A DNA stretch of 47,053 nucleotides from a virus. The stretch spans positions 1-47,053 of the IMG/VR virus record IMGVR_UViG_3300035670_000360. One strand, written 5' to 3'. The notes under the pieces were generated by a model. The model ran no database searches. It was not told the origin of the DNA and saw only the letters and a list, made by a program, of their open reading frames with translations. Each line of letters begins with the position of its first letter. The stretch's first letter is position 1. This document shows, piece by piece, positions 2,354 to 45,360 of this stretch. Made by a program: the position numbers and the translations under genes.

Positions 2354-2567
2354 TGTACAGTACCCAGACCACTACACATTTGGTACCGTTGAGTGTATTG
2401 CTGCAATAGAGGCAAGCATGAGCCGGGAAGCCTTTCTTGGGTTCCTTAAAGGGAACATCATGAAGTACATCTGGAGGTACGAACGCAAGGGTTCCTTAGA
2501 ATCCCTTGAGAAAGCAGAGTGGTACCTGCGTCGTATGATTAAGTTGAAAGCTGAGGGGGTGAAGTAA
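2346..2567 (+). CDS. DUF3310-like protein
   Basis: This 73-residue protein begins MDNVQYPDHYTFGTVECIAAI and contains GNIMKYIWRYERKG plus a Leu-rich helix with YLRRM, the hallmark pattern of the DUF3310 family (phage nucleotide kinase-associated small proteins, T7 gp1.7-related). The start at 2346 matches the family N-terminus; an in-frame ATG at 2328 is an alternative and lies nearer no better ribosome site. Its stop overlaps the ribonucleotide reductase start as TAATG, so the genes are coupled. The biochemical role is not settled for this family; context suggests nucleotide metabolism. Confidence 0.75.
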   Translation: MDNVQYPDHYTFGTVECIAAIEASMSREAFLGFLKGNIMKYIWRYERKGSLESLEKAEWYLRRMIKLKAEGVK

Positions 2568-4360
2568 TGGTAACACCAGACTACTCACGAGATGGCTTGC
2601 TCACTGAGTACGCCAAGAAAATGATCACAGATAGATACTTATGGGGTGACGAGCGATCACCGCAGGATGCTTTTCGGAGGGCTTCAATCTATGGCGCAAC
2701 GTATAAAGGGACTACTGACTGGGATCTTGCTAATCGTCTGTACAATTATAGTAGCAATCTCTGGTTCATGTTTGCTACTCCTATTCTTAGTAATGGTGGT
2801 ACCACTCGGGGGTATCCTATTAGTTGCTTCCTCAATTATGTCCCAGATTCGAGAAAAGGTTTAAGCGAGCACTACGATGAGAATATATGGTTGGCTTCTG
2901 GTGGTGGTGGCATTGGTAGTTTTTGGGGTGATGTGCGAAGCGACGGGACGGCTACCGCAAATGGCAGCAAGTCTACTGGCTGCATCCCTTTTATCCACGT
3001 TGTTGATTCGCAGATGTTAGCATTCAACCAAGGCACCAACAGACGTGGTGCCTGTGCTACCTACATGAACATAACCCACCCAGAAGTGGAAGAGTTCATT
3101 GACATGCGTAAGTCAACAGGTGGTGACCCGCATCGCCGTAACACCAACCTGCACCATGGGGTTGTACTTACCGAAGACTTCCTGTATGCGGTATCACACG
3201 ACCTTAGCTGGGATCTAATAGACCCACACACCGACATTGTTATTAAGACAATGAAGGCTCGTGACCTGTGGTTCAAGATTCTAGAAGCACGAGCTGAAAC
3301 AGGTGAGCCATTCTTGGTTAACTACGACAACATGAATGACGCATTGCCTGATCAAATGAAAGCAAAAGGGCTGAAGGTACTCCATAGCAACTTGTGTACT
3401 GAGATCACCCTTCCTGTCAATGAGAATAGAACAGCAGTGTGCTGCTTGTCCTCAGTGAATGTTGAGAAGTTCGATGAGTGGAGAACTAACGTTAGGTTCA
3501 TTGGCGACCTTATTACCATGTTGGATAACGTGTTGGATAACTTCATATCAGAAGCCTCTCATTCACCGGGGATGCGCAAGGCAGTATACTCCGCTGTACA
3601 AGAGAGAAGCATTGGCCTTGGTGCGATGGGGTTCCACTCATACCTACAGTCCATTGGTGTTCCTATTGAATCAGCTGTAGCCAAGGGTATTAACATTAGG
3701 GTATTCTCACATATAAAGAATGATGCAGTTGAAACCTCTAGACGCCTTGCAAACACCCGTGGTGAAGCTCCTGATATGGCTGGCACTGGGCTTCGTAATG
3801 CTCACCTATTGGCTGTTGCTCCCAACGCCAGTAGCTCGGTCATCTGCGGTGGTACTTCGCCGTCTATTGAACCGTTTAGAGCCAACGTGTACACACAGAA
3901 AGGTGTAGTTGGCTCCTCTCAGGTGCGTAACAAGTACCTAGAGAAGCTGATACACGAGCGCCTCGATGGTGACTACAAGGCTATTGAAGCTGTATGGGCA
4001 CTGATATATGAGGATGAAGGTAGTGTTGCTAACATTAGCATTCTTACTGACTATGAGAAAGATATATTCAAGACGTTCCCAGAGATAGACCAGATGGCTT
4101 TAGTTGAACTGGCTATTGACAGGCAAGAGTATATATGTCAAGGTCAGTCATTGAACCTGTCGTTCATCACCCCACCAAGTGACGCACCACAGGAGACACA
4201 TGACAGGTTCATGCAGTACGTTAGTGATGTTCACTTTCGTGCTATACGTGATCTTAAGACTATCTACTACTACCGAGGCAGAGAAGCTACCAAGGTTGAG
4301 AACGTAGACATGAAGATCCCACAGAGGAAGGATTCAGATTGCTTCTTCTGTGAGGGGTAA
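2567..4360 (+). CDS. nrdA: Class I ribonucleotide reductase, large (alpha) subunit
   Basis: The product makes deoxyribonucleotides from ribonucleotides with NrdB (encoded at 5023). Visible active-site features are the Cys in PISCF, SNLCTEI (the Asn-x-Cys-x-Glu radical and general-base residues), AVCCLSSVN (partner Cys of the redox pair), the tyrosines of IYYYRGR in the radical-transfer path, and the C-terminal CxxC shuttle DCFFCEG. At 597 residues it is shorter than E. coli NrdA (761). The N-terminal ATP-cone appears to be absent, so overall activity control by ATP/dATP is probably lost, fitting a phage that needs continuous dNTP supply. A strong SD (GAGGGGGT) precedes ATG 2567. Confidence 0.95.
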   Translation: MVTPDYSRDGLLTEYAKKMITDRYLWGDERSPQDAFRRASIYGATYKGTTDWDLANRLYNYSSNLWFMFATPILSNGGTTRGYPISCFLNYVPDSRKGLSEHYDENIWLASGGGGIGSFWGDVRSDGTATANGSKSTGCIPFIHVVDSQMLAFNQGTNRRGACATYMNITHPEVEEFIDMRKSTGGDPHRRNTNLHHGVVLTEDFLYAVSHDLSWDLIDPHTDIVIKTMKARDLWFKILEARAETGEPFLVNYDNMNDALPDQMKAKGLKVLHSNLCTEITLPVNENRTAVCCLSSVNVEKFDEWRTNVRFIGDLITMLDNVLDNFISEASHSPGMRKAVYSAVQERSIGLGAMGFHSYLQSIGVPIESAVAKGINIRVFSHIKNDAVETSRRLANTRGEAPDMAGTGLRNAHLLAVAPNASSSVICGGTSPSIEPFRANVYTQKGVVGSSQVRNKYLEKLIHERLDGDYKAIEAVWALIYEDEGSVANISILTDYEKDIFKTFPEIDQMALVELAIDRQEYICQGQSLNLSFITPPSDAPQETHDRFMQYVSDVHFRAIRDLKTIYYYRGREATKVENVDMKIPQRKDSDCFFCEG

Positions 4361-4420
4361 CTATCAAAGTTCCATAAGACGGCCTCAGCCTCTGCCAGTA
4401 GGTACGCTGGGGTTCTCACC

Positions 4421-4478
4421 AATGACTCATATAGTGTCCATAAGGACGCTTAATGGCTCATATACTATCCATGAGGAC
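4421..4478 (+). repeat. Imperfect 27-nt direct repeat upstream of the MazG-like gene
   Basis: Two copies, 4421-4447 and 4452-4478 (period 31), share the pattern AATGRCTCATATASTRTCC followed by ATRAGGAC. They fill the only real gap (4361-4484) between nrdA and the next start. They could be a duplicated leader or operator; the second copy supplies the GAGGAC ribosome-binding region of the MazG-like gene. Confidence 0.6.
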
Positions 4479-4484
4479 ACTAAC

Positions 4485-4793
4485 ATGCAAAAAGATATTA
4501 AGTTTGAGGAAGTACAGGACGCTGTTGTAGAGTGGGCAGAGAAGCGCGGGATTACCTCACAGGCCCCAAGGTTGCAACTGCTGAAGACTATGGAAGAACT
4601 GGGTGAACTCTGTGCTGCTGTGCTACGCAAGGATAAAGAAGGGGAAGTTGATGCTATTGGTGACGTGCTTGTTACCTTGATTATCTACTGTGAGATGCAG
4701 AACCTTGACATTACCCGCTGCTTGCTGCGTGCTTACAACGAGATAGCCGGGAGAGAAGGGGCTATAGTTGATGGCGTGTTCGTTAAGGCATAG
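4485..4793 (+). CDS. MazG-like nucleotide pyrophosphohydrolase
   Basis: The start is taken at ATG 4485, giving 102 residues. The sequence has the all-alpha NTP pyrophosphohydrolase pattern: KTMEELGELCAAVLR, then EVDAIGDVLVTLI, equivalent to the ExxE...ExxD metal-binding motif of MazG/dUTPase-2 relatives. Such enzymes hydrolyse (d)NTPs to monophosphates and may adjust nucleotide pools or stress signalling. It lies between the two ribonucleotide reductase genes, which supports a role in dNTP homeostasis. Substrate is unknown. Confidence 0.8.
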   Translation: MQKDIKFEEVQDAVVEWAEKRGITSQAPRLQLLKTMEELGELCAAVLRKDKEGEVDAIGDVLVTLIIYCEMQNLDITRCLLRAYNEIAGREGAIVDGVFVKA

Positions 4794-4795
4794 CC

Positions 4796-5023
4796 GTGGA
4801 CGACGATAGAGTAATAAACTATCTTAAGTCCCTCTCAGCTAGTGCAAATATTGCAACAACTGGGAACGTATCAACAAAGTACTTGTTTGATTCAGCATTA
4901 GAGGTTGCCTATATTATTCTACGAGAGGCAGACACACGTAGCGATGCGTACCGTAGAGCACAGAAGTTCATTGAAGGGTACACCGCATTCACCGGGTACC
5001 TACAAGATAAGGAGATATACTGA
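4796..5023 (+). CDS. Hypothetical protein (75 aa) between mazG-like and nrdB
   Basis: The ORF begins with GTG 4796, two bases after the preceding stop, and its TGA overlaps the nrdB ATG (TGATG). The product looks alpha-helical and soluble, with a Ser/Ala-rich N-terminal half and a charged middle (READTRSDAYRRAQ). No family recognised; operon continuity is the main support. Confidence 0.65.
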   Translation: MDDDRVINYLKSLSASANIATTGNVSTKYLFDSALEVAYIILREADTRSDAYRRAQKFIEGYTAFTGYLQDKEIY

Positions 5024-6024
5024 TGAGTAACTTGTTTAAGCCAAGGGAATACTACAAGCCATTTGATTATCCTTGGGCATTCGACTACTACCGCAAGCAA
5101 AGCTCAGAGATGCACTGGGTACCAGAGGACGTTCCTCTTCACGAGGACATACGTGATTGGAACACTAAGCTATCCCCGGTGCAAAAGGAAGTAGTAACAC
5201 AGATCCTCAACCTGTTCACACAGAGTGACGTTGACGTAGGCGCTGCTTACTACGAAAAGTTCATCCCCATGTTCCCTGTGCCAGAGATACGCATGATGCT
5301 GGGGGCCTTTGCTAACATGGAGTCAGTACATCAACATGCGTACTCACACTTCACAGACACCATAGGACTGCCTGTATCGACGTATAAGGCGTTTTATGAG
5401 TATGAGGCTATGAGGGATAAGCATGACTACCTATCGTTGCTTACGAGTGATTATAGTGCGTCTAACGTGCTAAAGAATATAGCCATCTACTCTGCCTTCA
5501 CTGAGGGGATGCAGTTGTTCTCCTCGTTTGCTATCCTTCTGAAGTTCCCACATGAGGGGCTGATGAAAGGAATGGGTCAGATTGTTAGCTACAGTATCAA
5601 GGATGAGTCAGTTCACGTAGAGGGTATGATCCGCTTGTTCCACGAGGTGAAGAAGGAGAACATGGGAGCATGGGATGATAGCTGCAAGGAAGCTGTTAAG
5701 GATGCTGCTGAAGTGATGTGTAACCTTGAGCACCGATTTGTGGACAAGGTGTTCGAGATAGGAGACTTACCAAATCTAAGGAAGGGTGATGTTAAAAGAT
5801 ATAATATGTATATTGCTGACCGTCGTCTGCTTCAGCTTGGATTGGAGCCAATATTTGGGGTAAAAGACAACCCGCTTCCATTCATAAGTGAGGTTCTTGG
5901 GGTGGAATTTGCTGACTTCTTCAGCACAAGAGCCACTGCTTACATGAAAGGCGGGTTGAAGGGGAACCGTACTAGCGTAACCTTTCCTCCACCTGTTTCT
6001 CCAAGCGTAGTATATCCTTTTTAA
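5023..6024 (+). CDS. nrdB: Class I ribonucleotide reductase, small (beta) subunit
   Basis: This 333-residue ferritin-like protein carries the metal site and radical tyrosine for the NrdA partner. By eye, ligands match the E. coli set: Asp in QSDVDVG, Glu and His in MESVHQHAY, Glu in FTEGMQL and Glu/His in KDESVH. The Tyr of HQHAY sits where E. coli Tyr122 is, so it should be a tyrosyl-radical class Ia/b type. The last 53 bp overlap, on the opposite strand, the end of the leftward lysis-type gene. An AGGAGATATAC leader and TGATG coupling precede the start. Confidence 0.95.
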   Translation: MSNLFKPREYYKPFDYPWAFDYYRKQSSEMHWVPEDVPLHEDIRDWNTKLSPVQKEVVTQILNLFTQSDVDVGAAYYEKFIPMFPVPEIRMMLGAFANMESVHQHAYSHFTDTIGLPVSTYKAFYEYEAMRDKHDYLSLLTSDYSASNVLKNIAIYSAFTEGMQLFSSFAILLKFPHEGLMKGMGQIVSYSIKDESVHVEGMIRLFHEVKKENMGAWDDSCKEAVKDAAEVMCNLEHRFVDKVFEIGDLPNLRKGDVKRYNMYIADRRLLQLGLEPIFGVKDNPLPFISEVLGVEFADFFSTRATAYMKGGLKGNRTSVTFPPPVSPSVVYPF

Positions 6025-14728: not shown

Positions 14729-15199
14729 CTAAATCCTCTTAGAGTACACTACGTCTTGAACCCTGTACCCCATCACATCCATTACAGAGCACAATGCTGT
14801 ATCTTTCTTAGCGTGCCAAGTGATGAACTTAGCACCCCTACCAGCAGCTAACTCTTCAGTTTTCCTAATGAGTTCCCCGCCTGCGCCTAACTTGCGTACC
14901 GCTTGGTCAACAAATAGGACATCGTTCTGGTAGAAAGTCATACCACGGTAGTGCAAGTGCTGCCCAACAAACCCTACCGAGTACCCAACTACGTTGGCTT
15001 GGTTGTAGCAAACTAATGATAGAAGGATGCCTTGGTCTTCTAACATCTGGTACTTAACCATATCTGGGTCTAGCACCATGATGTCCTTCTCTGTTGCTAG
15101 TTCGTCTCGGTGCTTCTGTGCCAACTCTCTTACGGCACCAAAGAGGTCACTGATACCGATCTCCCTCACAATAAACGCATTACTTACTGTTGACTGCAT
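14729..15199 (-). CDS. GNAT-like N-acetyltransferase in the ejection module
   Basis: The start is set at ATG 15199 (MQSTVSNAFIVREIG), preceded by GGGTGGGA; the upstream in-frame extension runs inside the tail gene. The 156 residues show a GNAT layout: a beta-rich middle (YSVGFVGQHLHYRGMTFYQNDVLF), then VRKLGAGGELIRKTEELA, close to the Q/RxxGxG/A acetyl-CoA loop, and a final beta strand near YRVQDVVYSKRI. Similar proteins precede the internal virion genes in many T7-like phages and may be packaged or act in assembly. The substrate is unknown. Confidence 0.72.
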   Translation of the reverse strand: MQSTVSNAFIVREIGISDLFGAVRELAQKHRDELATEKDIMVLDPDMVKYQMLEDQGILLSLVCYNQANVVGYSVGFVGQHLHYRGMTFYQNDVLFVDQAVRKLGAGGELIRKTEELAAGRGAKFITWHAKKDTALCSVMDVMGYRVQDVVYSKRI

Positions 15200-17471
15200 A
15201 ACTTGTTTCCCACCCAAGTAGATGAAAGTCTTTACCTGAAACAGACTCGAATCTATATTGTAGCACTTTCCCCATCCCACGTATAGCAATCTTATTTTGG
15301 TTTACTAAGTACCCATAATCAAATGGGTCGTCCTCATCCTCTGCTACATAGAGGTCTTTCAGCCTATATATCTCGTCTATCACATGCCACCGATTTGAAG
15401 AAGCAGAGTTAGAGTAATCCCATTTAGCTGTGAGTTTACAGCCAGACTGATTAGACAGCACGATGTTTCCAGAACCGTCATCTTCAAACCCATCCTCTGT
15501 TATCTGAAACATTGTCTGCAAAGTGAGTGCTTGCTTGTCTCTACCGAAATCCCCAAGGTTCTCAAACGCAGTCTCTGCGTAGCTGCTGTAGTCTGCACCA
15601 GCACCATCAGCGGTTGCCCAGTCCACCATAGCCCTGTTGCTCATCTCGGAGAAAGTAATGTTCTTAGTGTTAGTCCCCTGCCCCGGCACCACTGTCAACA
15701 GCTTGAGTGATGGGGTAGCACCCCCGGTAGACGGGGTGGAGATATTTGCTACAACGTCGTTAGCTCCCTGAACAACATCGTCAGTACCTACGATAACATC
15801 GTAGAGAACACTTGTGTTACCAAGTGAAGACGTGGGGATAGCACCGGATATATAGGGTGTGGCTGCTTCAAGTGCAGAGAACGAGTGCTTATAGAAAGCA
15901 TTCAGGTTCAAATCGAATACTATCGCGGAATCGTAGTAGTACCTACTAGTAACGCCATCAGTAGTGGAGGAGTAGAACCACCAGATGATATTGTTAACCC
16001 GGTCGTGTACACCATTAGCAAATTCTTTTGATGATTGTTGTATGTGGTCATAGTGGCTCTGTATTGTGCTTATAGAAATATTTGTTACAACAAGGTTGCC
16101 AAAGTCATTCGGGCCAATTGAGTAGATAGCATTGTACCCAAAGAAGTAGATAACGCTGTTAACCTCAACAGCCGAGTAGCTTCCTAAGAAGTTCACCGAT
16201 GAAATCTTGTTTACTTGGTAGTTAGTTGGAGAGAACGCCCTGTCCCCACCAGAGATGATCCAGATCCCTGATTCTGATCCTATTACCAGCTTGTCATTAC
16301 TAACCCCCAAGTACTTTATCTTCCCAGCCTCTGACAACGGGATAAACCCACCGTCTGTGTCCAGTGGATCAGAGATGAATGGGTCTGTTGGGTCGTTGAT
16401 AGAGTAGCACTTACCAATATCATTGAAGTCTTTCAGAGTTTGGGAGAAGTATAGCCCCGCCTCTATGTTATCAGAGTCTACCCCTGCGTAGAATACCCGT
16501 CCTTGGTAGTACACAGCCAAGCGGAACCTAACGTCTGGCTCTGTAGTACCAGCAACACCACCTACACCTGAAGCCGCCTGTCTATCTTGGTTGAACAGGT
16601 CAAGTATGTAGTGGCCAGAGGGTGAAACACCCGTGGAGAGGAACTTGCGGTTGAGGATAAATGGGTTAAACGCATCGTTAACAGTGTTGGAACTTGGAGA
16701 AGACTCAACAAAGAAAGAGAACGTGTCCGTAATTGACGGGTACACACCCATTGTAGAATATGTGTAGTCAATTGTGTTTGTAGAAGCAGTGTAGCCACTA
16801 CCAGCCTCAGTAGTCCACACATCAAACGAGGTGGGCCACCCAGCATTCTGGAGGTTGTACCTCCGTGCGGACGGCAGTGTAGCACCAGAGTACCGCTCGG
16901 TTTCCTCTAGACCGTCCTCTACACCAGAGAAGTCACGGATCTGTATAGACACTGCGGTGGAGGATAGTACACCGGTTGACAGCTCTTCAATGTAGAACGG
17001 GTCAATGTACTTACCTGTTACTAGGAACTTACCCTTTATTGACTGACCCCATATAGGGTTTGACTTTGCGTTGTAGAAGTTCCCTGTAGTTGCGTAGTCA
17101 GCGATGCTAACAGAACCAACCAGATAACTAGAAACATTGCTTTCGTAAGCTCTAAACACATATAAGTATTCTCCGAATTGAACAACGTAATATGACTTGT
17201 CGCCCTCATTCCTAACGTTAGTCCATTCGTAGATTGGAATAGCGAACCTAGAGGCATCATCCTCTGAAGGCTCATTGGCTAATGTTACGGGGTCTATGTT
17301 GTACCCGCTCTCATAGTCAACACCAAGGCGTCTGCGTACAGACCCGTCCCTCTTGATGACTACATTGAGGATGTCATAGGCAATATCTTCAGGCGTGGAT
17401 AAAGGGGATACCTCAGTGATATACCCCTTGATAAAGCTCAGGTGTGGCTTAGTTGCTGCTACTCTGGACAC
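15180..17471 (-). CDS. Tail tubular protein B / tail nozzle (T7 gp12-like)
   Basis: The product (763 residues) corresponds in size, order and composition to T7 gp12 (794 residues), which forms the nozzle at the tail tip. It begins with LSFIKGYITEVSPLSTPEDI and DVVIKRDGSVRRRLGVDYE-like sequence, the standard opening of podovirus nozzle proteins, and the rest is Ser/Thr/Tyr-rich beta structure with propeller-like segments (IGSESGIWIISGGDRAFSP). It overlaps the small gene upstream (17449) and the acetyltransferase downstream. Confidence 0.88.
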   Translation of the reverse strand: MSRVAATKPHLSFIKGYITEVSPLSTPEDIAYDILNVVIKRDGSVRRRLGVDYESGYNIDPVTLANEPSEDDASRFAIPIYEWTNVRNEGDKSYYVVQFGEYLYVFRAYESNVSSYLVGSVSIADYATTGNFYNAKSNPIWGQSIKGKFLVTGKYIDPFYIEELSTGVLSSTAVSIQIRDFSGVEDGLEETERYSGATLPSARRYNLQNAGWPTSFDVWTTEAGSGYTASTNTIDYTYSTMGVYPSITDTFSFFVESSPSSNTVNDAFNPFILNRKFLSTGVSPSGHYILDLFNQDRQAASGVGGVAGTTEPDVRFRLAVYYQGRVFYAGVDSDNIEAGLYFSQTLKDFNDIGKCYSINDPTDPFISDPLDTDGGFIPLSEAGKIKYLGVSNDKLVIGSESGIWIISGGDRAFSPTNYQVNKISSVNFLGSYSAVEVNSVIYFFGYNAIYSIGPNDFGNLVVTNISISTIQSHYDHIQQSSKEFANGVHDRVNNIIWWFYSSTTDGVTSRYYYDSAIVFDLNLNAFYKHSFSALEAATPYISGAIPTSSLGNTSVLYDVIVGTDDVVQGANDVVANISTPSTGGATPSLKLLTVVPGQGTNTKNITFSEMSNRAMVDWATADGAGADYSSYAETAFENLGDFGRDKQALTLQTMFQITEDGFEDDGSGNIVLSNQSGCKLTAKWDYSNSASSNRWHVIDEIYRLKDLYVAEDEDDPFDYGYLVNQNKIAIRGMGKVLQYRFESVSGKDFHLLGWETSYAVNSK

Positions 17472-39698: not shown

Positions 39699-39856
39699 TG
39701 GATAAACACTGCAAAAGGTGCAAGGTGCATCACATTGCCGGACACCCGAAAGATAGCCCACTTGCACGAAAGTATAATGACTGGTGCTGCAAGTATGGCA
39801 TGACGGCAAAAAGAGCAATTGGTCACTGTAAGTTAAATAAAGGGAAGGTGGAGTGA
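39698..39856 (+). CDS. Cys/His-rich small cassette protein (52 aa)
   Basis: ATG 39698 overlaps the previous TGA. MDKHCKRCKVHHIAGHPKDS then KYNDWCCKYGMTAKRAIGHC: five Cys and several His in a basic small protein, likely a zinc-binding finger. It has the array junctions on both sides. Function unknown. Confidence 0.62.
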   Translation: MDKHCKRCKVHHIAGHPKDSPLARKYNDWCCKYGMTAKRAIGHCKLNKGKVE

Positions 39857-40149
39857 TGGATAACGAACAAATAACAGCGTTAGTTGCCAGATTGAAGATG
39901 GCCCATAGGCACGGAGCACTCGACTACGGCGATCTGTTCGAGATGTGTGAGGAAGCTGCCGAGACAATTGAAGCCCTCCGCAATCGCCTTGAGTGGCAGC
40001 CGATGGAGACGGCACCGCACGTGATGGACGATATAATAGTGCTGTGGAGATATGCCGACAACGCAACGTATTTTCTTGGGTCTGCGTGTAGTGCTGAGTG
40101 CGAGCACGGAGATATGGGTGTTTTTAATGGCTGGAGGTATGTGGAGTGA
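39856..40149 (+). CDS. WQPMETAP-motif protein (97 aa), DUF551-like
   Basis: N-terminal half is helical (TALVARLKMAHRHGALDYGD; MCEEAAETIEALRNRLE). The C-terminal half has LEWQPMETAPHVMDDIIVLW and ends GWRYVE, matching the short WQPIETAPKDG-type domain widespread in phages and prophages. A second copy is encoded at 40337. Function of the domain is unknown; possibly a binding module. Confidence 0.72.
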   Translation: MDNEQITALVARLKMAHRHGALDYGDLFEMCEEAAETIEALRNRLEWQPMETAPHVMDDIIVLWRYADNATYFLGSACSAECEHGDMGVFNGWRYVE

Positions 40150-40337
40150 TGGACTATATCAATGCGACATATAGAACCAAATACAGAATCGACTCAAGAG
40201 TCATCTACACGGGTGATGGGTACGCAAAGATCGGGACTGTGGTCGGAGCGCGTTCGGCTTATCTCCGCGTCCAGATGGACGGTGAAAAATCAATTGGACT
40301 TTACCACCCAACGTGGGAAATGAAGGCGGTGGAGTGA
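40149..40337 (+). CDS. Small cassette protein (62 aa)
   Basis: Between two copies of the shared junction. MDYINATYRTKYRIDSRVIY then GDGYAKIGTVVGARSAYLRV; the strand-rich middle suggests an SH3-like or KOW-like small barrel, which is only a fold impression. Ends KAVE. Confidence 0.62.
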   Translation: MDYINATYRTKYRIDSRVIYTGDGYAKIGTVVGARSAYLRVQMDGEKSIGLYHPTWEMKAVE

Positions 40338-40669
40338 TGGACAAATCAATAGAGTTCTTCAAGGGGATAATTGAATGCCGAACAACGTTCCGCGACGGCG
40401 ATCCTGCGTTAGAGGCATATAAAGAAGAGTGTCTTGCTGAGCTTGAAGCACTCCGCAAAAAGCTGGAGTGGCAGCCGATGGAAACAATCCCACATGACAA
40501 GTCTGTGCTTGTTAAATGTAAGGACGAAGACGAGGTAAGCGTAGGTTATGTGACGCGCAACGATGGTCGCGTCTACTTGCTAGCTGACGGTGAGTTTTGC
40601 AGCAACTACGACGGCGACGATATTTATGTTTTTGCATGCACATTATCAGGCTGGAGAGAGGTGGAGTGA
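40337..40669 (+). CDS. WQPMETIP-motif protein (110 aa), paralogue of the 39856 gene
   Basis: The start at 40337 follows the array junction; an upstream in-frame TTG/GTG would overlap it. It shares EALRKKLEWQPMETIPHDKS with the 39856 protein (EALRNRLEWQPMETAPHVMD) but its C-terminal half differs (VGYVTRNDGRVYLLADGEF) before the common GWREVE end. Two related genes in one array point to duplication and divergence or separate acquisition. Confidence 0.72.
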   Translation: MDKSIEFFKGIIECRTTFRDGDPALEAYKEECLAELEALRKKLEWQPMETIPHDKSVLVKCKDEDEVSVGYVTRNDGRVYLLADGEFCSNYDGDDIYVFACTLSGWREVE

Positions 40670-43484: not shown

Positions 43485-43973
43485 ATGGGTACCTACGTAT
43501 TTGATATAGAAACAAACGGGTTGAACCCTGATCGTGTGTGGTGCGCAGTGTTCCTTGATGTGGAAACACAGGAGTTCAGAAAGTTCTACTCACCAGAAGG
43601 GTTCACAAGAGGGCCACTATCACACCTGCTAGTGAAGTTTGTTAACGAGGCAGAGTGTCTAATTGGGCATAACATACTTGGGTTCGACATCCCTGTATTA
43701 CAGGACGTTGTTGGTGTAGATGCTTTGAATGGAAGATTGGTGGACACATTGATATGGTCTACTATCTCCCGTAAGTGGCGCAACGATCACACACTAGAAG
43801 GCTATGGTGAAGAATATGGGAGACCAAAACCAAAGCATGAGGACTGGAGTAAGTACAGCGATGAGATGCTCCACCGATGTAGCGAAGACGTTCTCATCAA
43901 CTACGAACTGTGGAAATCCCTCTGCAAAGACACCATCAAGTGGCAAGGATACTCTCTCAAAGAGAGAGCTTAA
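43485..43973 (+). CDS. DNA polymerase I-type, 3'-5' exonuclease part (frameshifted from the polymerase part)
   Basis: GAGGTGA precedes ATG 43485. The 162 residues form the proofreading exonuclease of a T7-type family A polymerase: FDIETNGL (Exo I acids), LIGHNILGFDIPVL (Exo II) and HRCSEDV (Exo III Asp, with His five residues before it where T7 has Tyr four before). The frame ends at TAA 43971. Polymerase coding resumes at once in the +1 frame, so a whole enzyme needs a frameshift. Confidence 0.85.
   Translation: MGTYVFDIETNGLNPDRVWCAVFLDVETQEFRKFYSPEGFTRGPLSHLLVKFVNEAECLIGHNILGFDIPVLQDVVGVDALNGRLVDTLIWSTISRKWRNDHTLEGYGEEYGRPKPKHEDWSKYSDEMLHRCSEDVLINYELWKSLCKDTIKWQGYSLKERA
43952..43973 (+). 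promoter_or_regulatory. Putative +1 frameshift site / indel-prone hairpin in the DNA polymerase gene
   Basis: CTCTCTC-AAA-GAGAGAG is a perfect 7-bp inverted repeat directly before GCT TAA C. Dropping one base within it joins SLK to RELNIEKAL in the polymerase frame. The purine-rich SD-like GAGAGAG and weak stop context TAAC recall the RF2 frameshift arrangement, but dinucleotide repeats also favour sequencing or replication slippage. Confidence 0.5.
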
Positions 43974-43989
43974 CATTGAGAAGGCGTTA

Positions 43990-45360
43990 ATGCTTGAGTC
44001 CATGCTTGCTGATGTGATTCGTGATCAGTTCAAGCGTGGCTGGGAGATAGACATACAGCTACTGGATAGCCTTATTTCAACGCTAGAGGCCCGTAGTAAA
44101 GAGATCGAGGTAGAGGTGGTACCTACATTGCCGTCGGTACCAAAAGGGGCACCAAAGGCAACGGAGAAGGTATACAAGGCTAGTGGGGAATACACTCAGC
44201 TAGTTATCAAGTGGTTCCCAGTGGACTACATACTGGATCAATGTGTCGCTGGCCCGTTCACCAAGGTGCAATTCATTGAGTTCAACATTGGTAGCCATGA
44301 TCAGGTAAAGAAGTACCTGCTTGCTAATGGCTGGGTTCCTACCGAGTGGAACCGTAAGCGAGACGAGAATGGTAGGTGGCAGAACACTAGCCCCAAGATC
44401 ACAGAAGACTCATTGAAATCTGTTGAGCACCTTGGTGGTACGATGAAGCTCATCTCTGAGTACATAGTGTGTAACCACCGACTGTCTAACCTTAAGACTT
44501 GGAGGGAGAAAGTTGAAAAAGATTCTAGTGGGTACTATAAACTACATCATACAGCCAATACTGTTCATGCTCCCACAGCTAGAATGGCGCATCGAGTACT
44601 TGTCAACGTACCTAATGAAGACTCGTTCTTGGGTAAAGAAATGCGTCAGCTCTTTATTGCACCGGATGGGTATAAAGTAGTTGGTTGTGATGCCAAAGGT
44701 TGCCAGATGAGGATGCTTGCACACCACATCAAAGCAATCTGCGGTAGAGAGACCACGTTCGTAACCGCTGTTCTGCACGGTACCAAAGAGAACAACGATG
44801 ACGTACACTGCTTGACACAGAAGGAGGCAGGCTTAGCAAAGAGGTCTGAAGGTAAGACACTGAACTATGCTATCCTGTTTGGGCAGAGCGATCCAGCACT
44901 AGCCCGGAGTCTTGGGTGTACTGAACGTAGGGCCACGGCAATCAAAGCACAGTTCTTCAAGAAGATGCCAGAGTTAAAGCGTGTCATTGAGATACTAGAG
45001 GCACAGTGGCAGCGGTCTCACATTGATAAAAGCAGGAGGTTTATTGTTGGTCTGGATGGTAGACCAATCTTTTGTAACAGTAAGCACAAACTGGTTAACT
45101 ACCTTGTGCAATCGGACGAGGCTATCCTGATGAAGTACTTCTACTGCCTACTGTGGAATGCTCTACAGAGGGAGAGACTGGATGCTTACATTGTTTTATT
45201 CTACCATGACGAGGTGCAAATTGTAGCAAGAGAAGATCATGCTGAACGTGTTGCGGAACTTTCTGCTAAGCTGCTTGTCAAAGCAGGACAACTACTAGGG
45301 ATCACAGTACCAACAGAAGGTGATCCATCAATCGGTAACAACTGGCGAGAAACACACTAG
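43990..45360 (+). CDS. DNA polymerase I-type, polymerase domain (T7 gp5-like, second part)
   Basis: This frame encodes the palm, fingers and thumb of a T7-type polymerase. It is open well upstream of 43990, where an ATG follows GAGAAGG and could allow separate initiation (456 residues); fusion by frameshift from 43485 would give about 620. Motif A reads GCDAKGCQMRMLAHH, with Gln at the usual steric-gate Glu; motif B RSEGKTLNYAILFG keeps the Tyr of T7 Tyr526; motif C is FYHDEVQI. Replicates phage DNA with the helicase. It ends at TAG, so amber is a normal stop here. Confidence 0.85.
   Translation: MLESMLADVIRDQFKRGWEIDIQLLDSLISTLEARSKEIEVEVVPTLPSVPKGAPKATEKVYKASGEYTQLVIKWFPVDYILDQCVAGPFTKVQFIEFNIGSHDQVKKYLLANGWVPTEWNRKRDENGRWQNTSPKITEDSLKSVEHLGGTMKLISEYIVCNHRLSNLKTWREKVEKDSSGYYKLHHTANTVHAPTARMAHRVLVNVPNEDSFLGKEMRQLFIAPDGYKVVGCDAKGCQMRMLAHHIKAICGRETTFVTAVLHGTKENNDDVHCLTQKEAGLAKRSEGKTLNYAILFGQSDPALARSLGCTERRATAIKAQFFKKMPELKRVIEILEAQWQRSHIDKSRRFIVGLDGRPIFCNSKHKLVNYLVQSDEAILMKYFYCLLWNALQRERLDAYIVLFYHDEVQIVAREDHAERVAELSAKLLVKAGQLLGITVPTEGDPSIGNNWRETH

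Follow-up and report, generated by a model that had tools for sequence, protein, structure and literature searches.

The replicative DNA polymerase of the uncultured phage analysed here is spread over two reading frames, and on balance we lean towards the view that it is a natural two-polypeptide enzyme of family A, split at the linker between its 3'-5' exonuclease and polymerase domains. The window, by which we mean the whole stretch of 47,053 nt that was studied, is a single IMG/VR virus record (IMGVR_UViG_3300035670_000360); positions are those of the window unless another record is named, and the two ORFs and the features at their junction lie on its + strand. We propose that the fused exonuclease-polymerase of Zobellviridae-like podophages would have been divided at the interdomain linker into two subunits, an exonuclease (43485-43973) and a separate polymerase. 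The latter would be translated from a separate start on the shared mRNA (most likely ATG 43990, preceded by GAGAAGG), by an initiation that may be independent and partly helped by ribosomes terminating just upstream, and the exonuclease and polymerase products would then associate for proofreading. Three readings had been listed in the first-pass annotation, namely a programmed frameshift at a hairpin, which its title favoured, a natural two-subunit polymerase and an indel error. The two-polypeptide reading is likelier than error or frameshift and has gained most of the three, because other lineages among the kin split the gene at this same seam, while the frameshift at the hairpin has fared worst.

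The exonuclease ORF (162 aa) starts at ATG 43485 and stops at TAA (43971-43973). Shifted by +1 against this ORF, the polymerase frame stays open over 43798-45360, and the ORF coordinates bear out what the first-pass annotation had said of the stop and of the frame that continues past it. From its first in-frame ATG past the exonuclease stop, the polymerase frame encodes 456 aa (43990-45360); the extension upstream of this ATG (43798-43989) is open, with no ATG, GTG or TTG between 43861 and 43990. In domain and profile searches the first ORF matched RNase_H_2 together with phrog_17, phrog_403 and phrog_192, and the second matched DNA_pol_A (PF00476, 1.4e-30) and phrog_17. Motifs A, B and C are present in the second ORF, with D247, K302 and H419-D420-E421 invariant in alignments of the kin; the DEDD residues of the exonuclease (D7, E9, D68 and D135), carried here on a separate ORF, are invariant among the split exonucleases. 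For each product by itself a confident fold is predicted: the AF2 model of the exonuclease (pLDDT 86 overall) is folded to about residue 150 and has a disordered tail (152-162), and that of the polymerase started at 43990 (pLDDT 92) is a complete fold, with a helix from residue 2. The best PDB matches of the polymerase ORF are T7 DNA polymerase, and T7 gp5 shares with the window its polymerase motifs, its fold (Foldseek E 4.8e-30, TM 0.78 to 6p7e_A) and the position of the exonuclease domain ahead of the polymerase. However, whereas gp5, like T7-type family-A polymerases in general, is one polypeptide, the two domains of the window are in different frames, split at the linker with a stop in between.

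Several observations place the change of frame in that linker. A profile of 69 fused kin that left out the window matches the exonuclease frame from its position 9 to 166 and the polymerase frame from 166 to 653; since the switch occurs at position 166, the frame must change between about 43943 and 43969. As expected of a split pair, both domains are complete and nothing is lost at the break. In a weak local match, the Leu that precedes Met 43990 (polymerase residue 13) aligns to residue 208 of the T7 chain, which, from the domain limits of T7 DNA polymerase, we take to be just past its exo/pol linker. Codon usage does not place the change, being flat and failing to separate the frames over 43866-43970. 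An intron or homing element was considered and discarded, since nothing lies between the two frames and there was no Rfam match of note.

The comparison with related phages, which the first-pass annotation had suggested as a check, cuts both ways and does not by itself decide the matter: most of the kin have a plain single ORF, and several lineages are split. The loci gathered include 145 that are full-length and uninterrupted, 114 of them distinct. By polymerase, the nearest isolates are mostly Zobellviridae podophages; Citrobacter phage CVT22, Pseudoalteromonas phage RIO-1 and Vibrio phage 1.208.B are about 33% identical to the window over the whole polymerase and share its neighbours, a primase-helicase upstream and a 5'-3' exonuclease downstream, but all the Zobellviridae isolates compared have one uninterrupted ORF, unlike the window. 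Against this background, three other lineages are split at the same linker: (i) the clade of L038, L076, L112, L114 and L115 has its polymerase in +1, as in the window, with its start at a conserved GTG that lies inside the exonuclease gene, 7 nt after GGAG or GAGGA. This Shine-Dalgarno-GTG pair is kept while the exonuclease residue at that place varies among W, K and E, and the GTG looks like a real start from this pattern of conservation. (ii) In the five contigs L005-L009 there is an overlap of about 50 nt between the two ORFs, in the other frame, and the polymerase has an ATG start. (iii) In a single contig, L056, two small ORFs lie between exonuclease and polymerase.

The L038 clade comprises uncultured phages (IMGVR 3300031933_000124, 3300035702_000075, 3300038682_000083, 3300032212_000060 and 3300010368_000201), and its likeness to the window extends beyond the position of the split and the +1 frame to the structural genes (TerL 53-54%, portal 45-47% to L112 and L114). 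The exonuclease also has the same length from its RC motif to the stop (32 residues) as that of L076. The window differs from this clade in that the GGAG-N7-GTG start within the exonuclease gene is missing, with AAG in the place of the GTG. On TerL and portal the locus closest to the window is L071, which is fused, and in the polymerase tree, made by FastTree and with weak deep supports, the window is not the sister of the L038 clade. Searches of phages and IMG/VR found no close relative by DNA or by the exact junction string, and neither the protein searches with polymerase, capsid and terminase nor the search of genome contigs found one.

A candidate for the start that the two-polypeptide reading calls for is at hand. 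GAGAAGG occupies 43978-43984, 5 nt ahead of ATG 43990, just as had been described, and this ATG is the first usable start past the exonuclease stop, 16 nt after it. The duplex energy of this Shine-Dalgarno-like sequence is -5.3 kcal/mol; 40% of the 47 gene starts in the window are weaker, and 16% of internal ATG or GTG codons are as strong. To judge from the sequence, the Shine-Dalgarno at 43990 is of average strength for the window and the start would be adequate. In reporter work on native E. coli gene pairs, reinitiation falls by 40-80% at +14 nt (PMC10666635), so that with a spacing of 16 nt coupling by reinitiation would be weak or partial, and independent initiation must therefore contribute. 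The chief difficulty is that a start at ATG 43990 would omit the six polymerase-frame residues NIEKAL (43972-43989), which look conserved: random hexapeptides fit the kin as well in only 5 of 2000 trials against the fused profile and in 2 of 2000 against the profile of the L038 clade. For the seven residues before NIEKAL, random 7-mers did as well in 324 of 1000 and 50 of 1000 trials, respectively, so that these residues contribute little on the fused profile. Because NIEKAL fits better than chance, this part of the polymerase frame was probably being translated until recently, if not to this day. Its likeness to the kin would speak for a gene that was once fused or split only recently, for a start further upstream, for recoding or for a recent indel, and the naturally split kin also retain the equivalent of NIEKAL in their polymerase.

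Among the alternatives, a change of length in the dinucleotide runs of an inverted repeat at the junction, by recent mutation or by an assembly or sequencing error, would have broken a gene that is otherwise fused; we consider this rather unlikely. That the majority of the kin are fused, that the segment ahead of the ATG still resembles translated polymerase and that the dinucleotide runs would be plausible slippage sites are all in keeping with it. The break, however, falls within the linker of about 30 nt and not elsewhere in a gene of 1.88 kb, and the three other lineages are broken at the same seam. By our own rough estimate, about one gene in 10^4 would be expected to carry a chance frameshift within some 30 of its 1880 nt, a figure that ignores any locally raised slip rate at the dinucleotide runs. 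Among about 120 distinct kin, the breaks elsewhere in the gene were a frameshift in L154, a nonsense codon in L076 and an insertion in L139, which puts frameshifts elsewhere at about 1 in 120; because such breaks are rarer, a random indel in the 30-nt seam is unlikely, and it is chiefly this contrast that speaks against chance error in the window. Furthermore, the other recognisable large genes on the contig (both ribonucleotide reductase subunits, terminase, portal, internal virion protein and primase-helicase) read through as full ORFs. The length of the linker can be argued either way: joined, it would have 41 residues, which is near the upper end of the fused kin (31-39) and yet longer than in all 69 of them, and this is a mild point only, because the tree weakly sets the window beside a group that includes several kin with longer linkers.

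It is more doubtful that the two frames are joined by programmed recoding, in which ribosomes slipping by +1 at AAA-G, or by -2 on the CTCTC or GAGAG run and so into the same frame, would yield some fused exonuclease-polymerase besides free exonuclease, and marginally more doubtful again that such recoding at the exo/pol linker governs how much free exonuclease is made relative to the full proofreading polymerase. The candidate slip site AAA-G (43959-43962) is the only nearby codon that would allow full +1 re-pairing of the tRNA, the dinucleotide runs would permit full single-tRNA re-pairing at -2, L038, L076 and L111 likewise have AAA-G at their junction, and the stretch of polymerase frame ahead of ATG 43990 looks as if it were translated. 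The surroundings of the site nevertheless argue against a slip there, and no recognised stimulator of +1 frameshifting was found at the junction. In the prfB frameshift the Shine-Dalgarno spacing is 3 nt; here the sole nearby Shine-Dalgarno-like sequence, AAGGA, is 10 nt upstream, the A-site codon after AAA is GAG, which is common in the window (43.7 per 1000), and the stop is not in the A site but three codons further on, so that the prfB-type combination of an A-site stop or rare codon with a close Shine-Dalgarno is absent. As a conserved slip site AAA-G was rejected: it is missing in L112, L114 and L115, where the Shine-Dalgarno-GTG start accounts for the arrangement, and this start is present in all five contigs that extend sufficiently far upstream (L038, L076, L112, L114 and L115). 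In the parts of the frameshifting review PMC5009743 that were available, a keyword search found no case of a phage exonuclease-polymerase.

The hairpin at which the frameshift had been placed is real as a string of letters: the 7-bp inverted repeat CTCTCTC-AAA-GAGAGAG (43952-43968; arms 43952-43958 and 43962-43968, loop AAA) is perfect and sits where the first-pass annotation placed it. The window contains this exact string a single time and its shuffles do not contain it, but as a class perfect 7-bp inverted repeats are not rare (35 in the window against about 18 expected), and the predicted folding of the region 43940-44010 is only 1.8 sd more stable than that of shuffled sequences. The hairpin also overlaps the slip codon instead of lying downstream of it, and would be open while those codons are read; it is probably incidental. 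We also considered it as an intrinsic terminator and rejected this, as no T run follows it. A second, weak hairpin (43969-43998), with the exonuclease stop in its 5' arm, the Shine-Dalgarno in the loop and ATG 43990 in the stem, has an energy of -5.2 kcal/mol and is not significant, because it stands at a z of only -1.4 against shuffles.

Finally, it is improbable that the polymerase begins well within the exonuclease gene (at ATG 43861, 43837 or 43804) and overlaps it extensively, as in the L038 and L005 clades: although its frame is open that far back, kin use starts inside the exonuclease gene and the conservation of NIEKAL would be accounted for, the Shine-Dalgarno matches for 43861 and 43837 are too distant, lying at the outer limit of the scan, the extra N-terminus (MRCSTDVAKTFSSTTNCGNPS...) adds no score against the kin profiles beyond its last 13 residues, and the flat codon usage noted above gives this overlap no backing.

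Some known systems come close to this arrangement. The phrog_403 and phrog_192 families ('DNA polymerase exonuclease subunit') match the window exonuclease at 4e-10 and 3e-8, and because of these matches a separate phage exonuclease gene can be said to have been annotated already; the best match of the window exonuclease is the fused phrog_17, ahead of both. The OM43 phages MEP401 and MEP402, which are related to Zobellviridae, also have their polymerase in two ORFs, but there the polymerase domain itself is divided, its two parts being separated by a small ORF and an intron being suspected, whereas in the window the split is at the exo/pol linker (PMC10580990). In the literature searched, mostly outside subscription journals, we found no report of a split at this linker in this phage family. 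Should the split be natural, a T7-type polymerase would have come apart into its proofreading and copying halves several times within one phage family and at the same seam, and these phages would be natural test cases for proofreading in trans. Gene callers and polymerase-based virus surveys would then undercount or mis-annotate such phages.

Other features were seen in these genomes. L076 has, besides its exo/pol split, an in-frame TAG within the polymerase domain (its positions 3488-3490), which could be an error, a suppressed stop or a recoded codon, and L139 carries about 350 nt of non-homologous sequence in the polymerase domain (2684-3066), possibly an intron or insertion. In the record of L062 (G008) the primase-helicase match is spread over two ORFs about 400 nt apart (3720-5693). 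Elsewhere in the window, the large and small subunits of ribonucleotide reductase are encoded at 2567-4360 and 5023-6024 (phrog_84 and phrog_86), and an acetyltransferase-like gene (phrog_1249) lies at 14729-15289 among tail and internal virion protein genes. Two small ORFs in a run of short ORFs (39853-40149 and 40313-40669) have LRxxLEWQPMETxPH in common and appear to be the product of a gene duplication.
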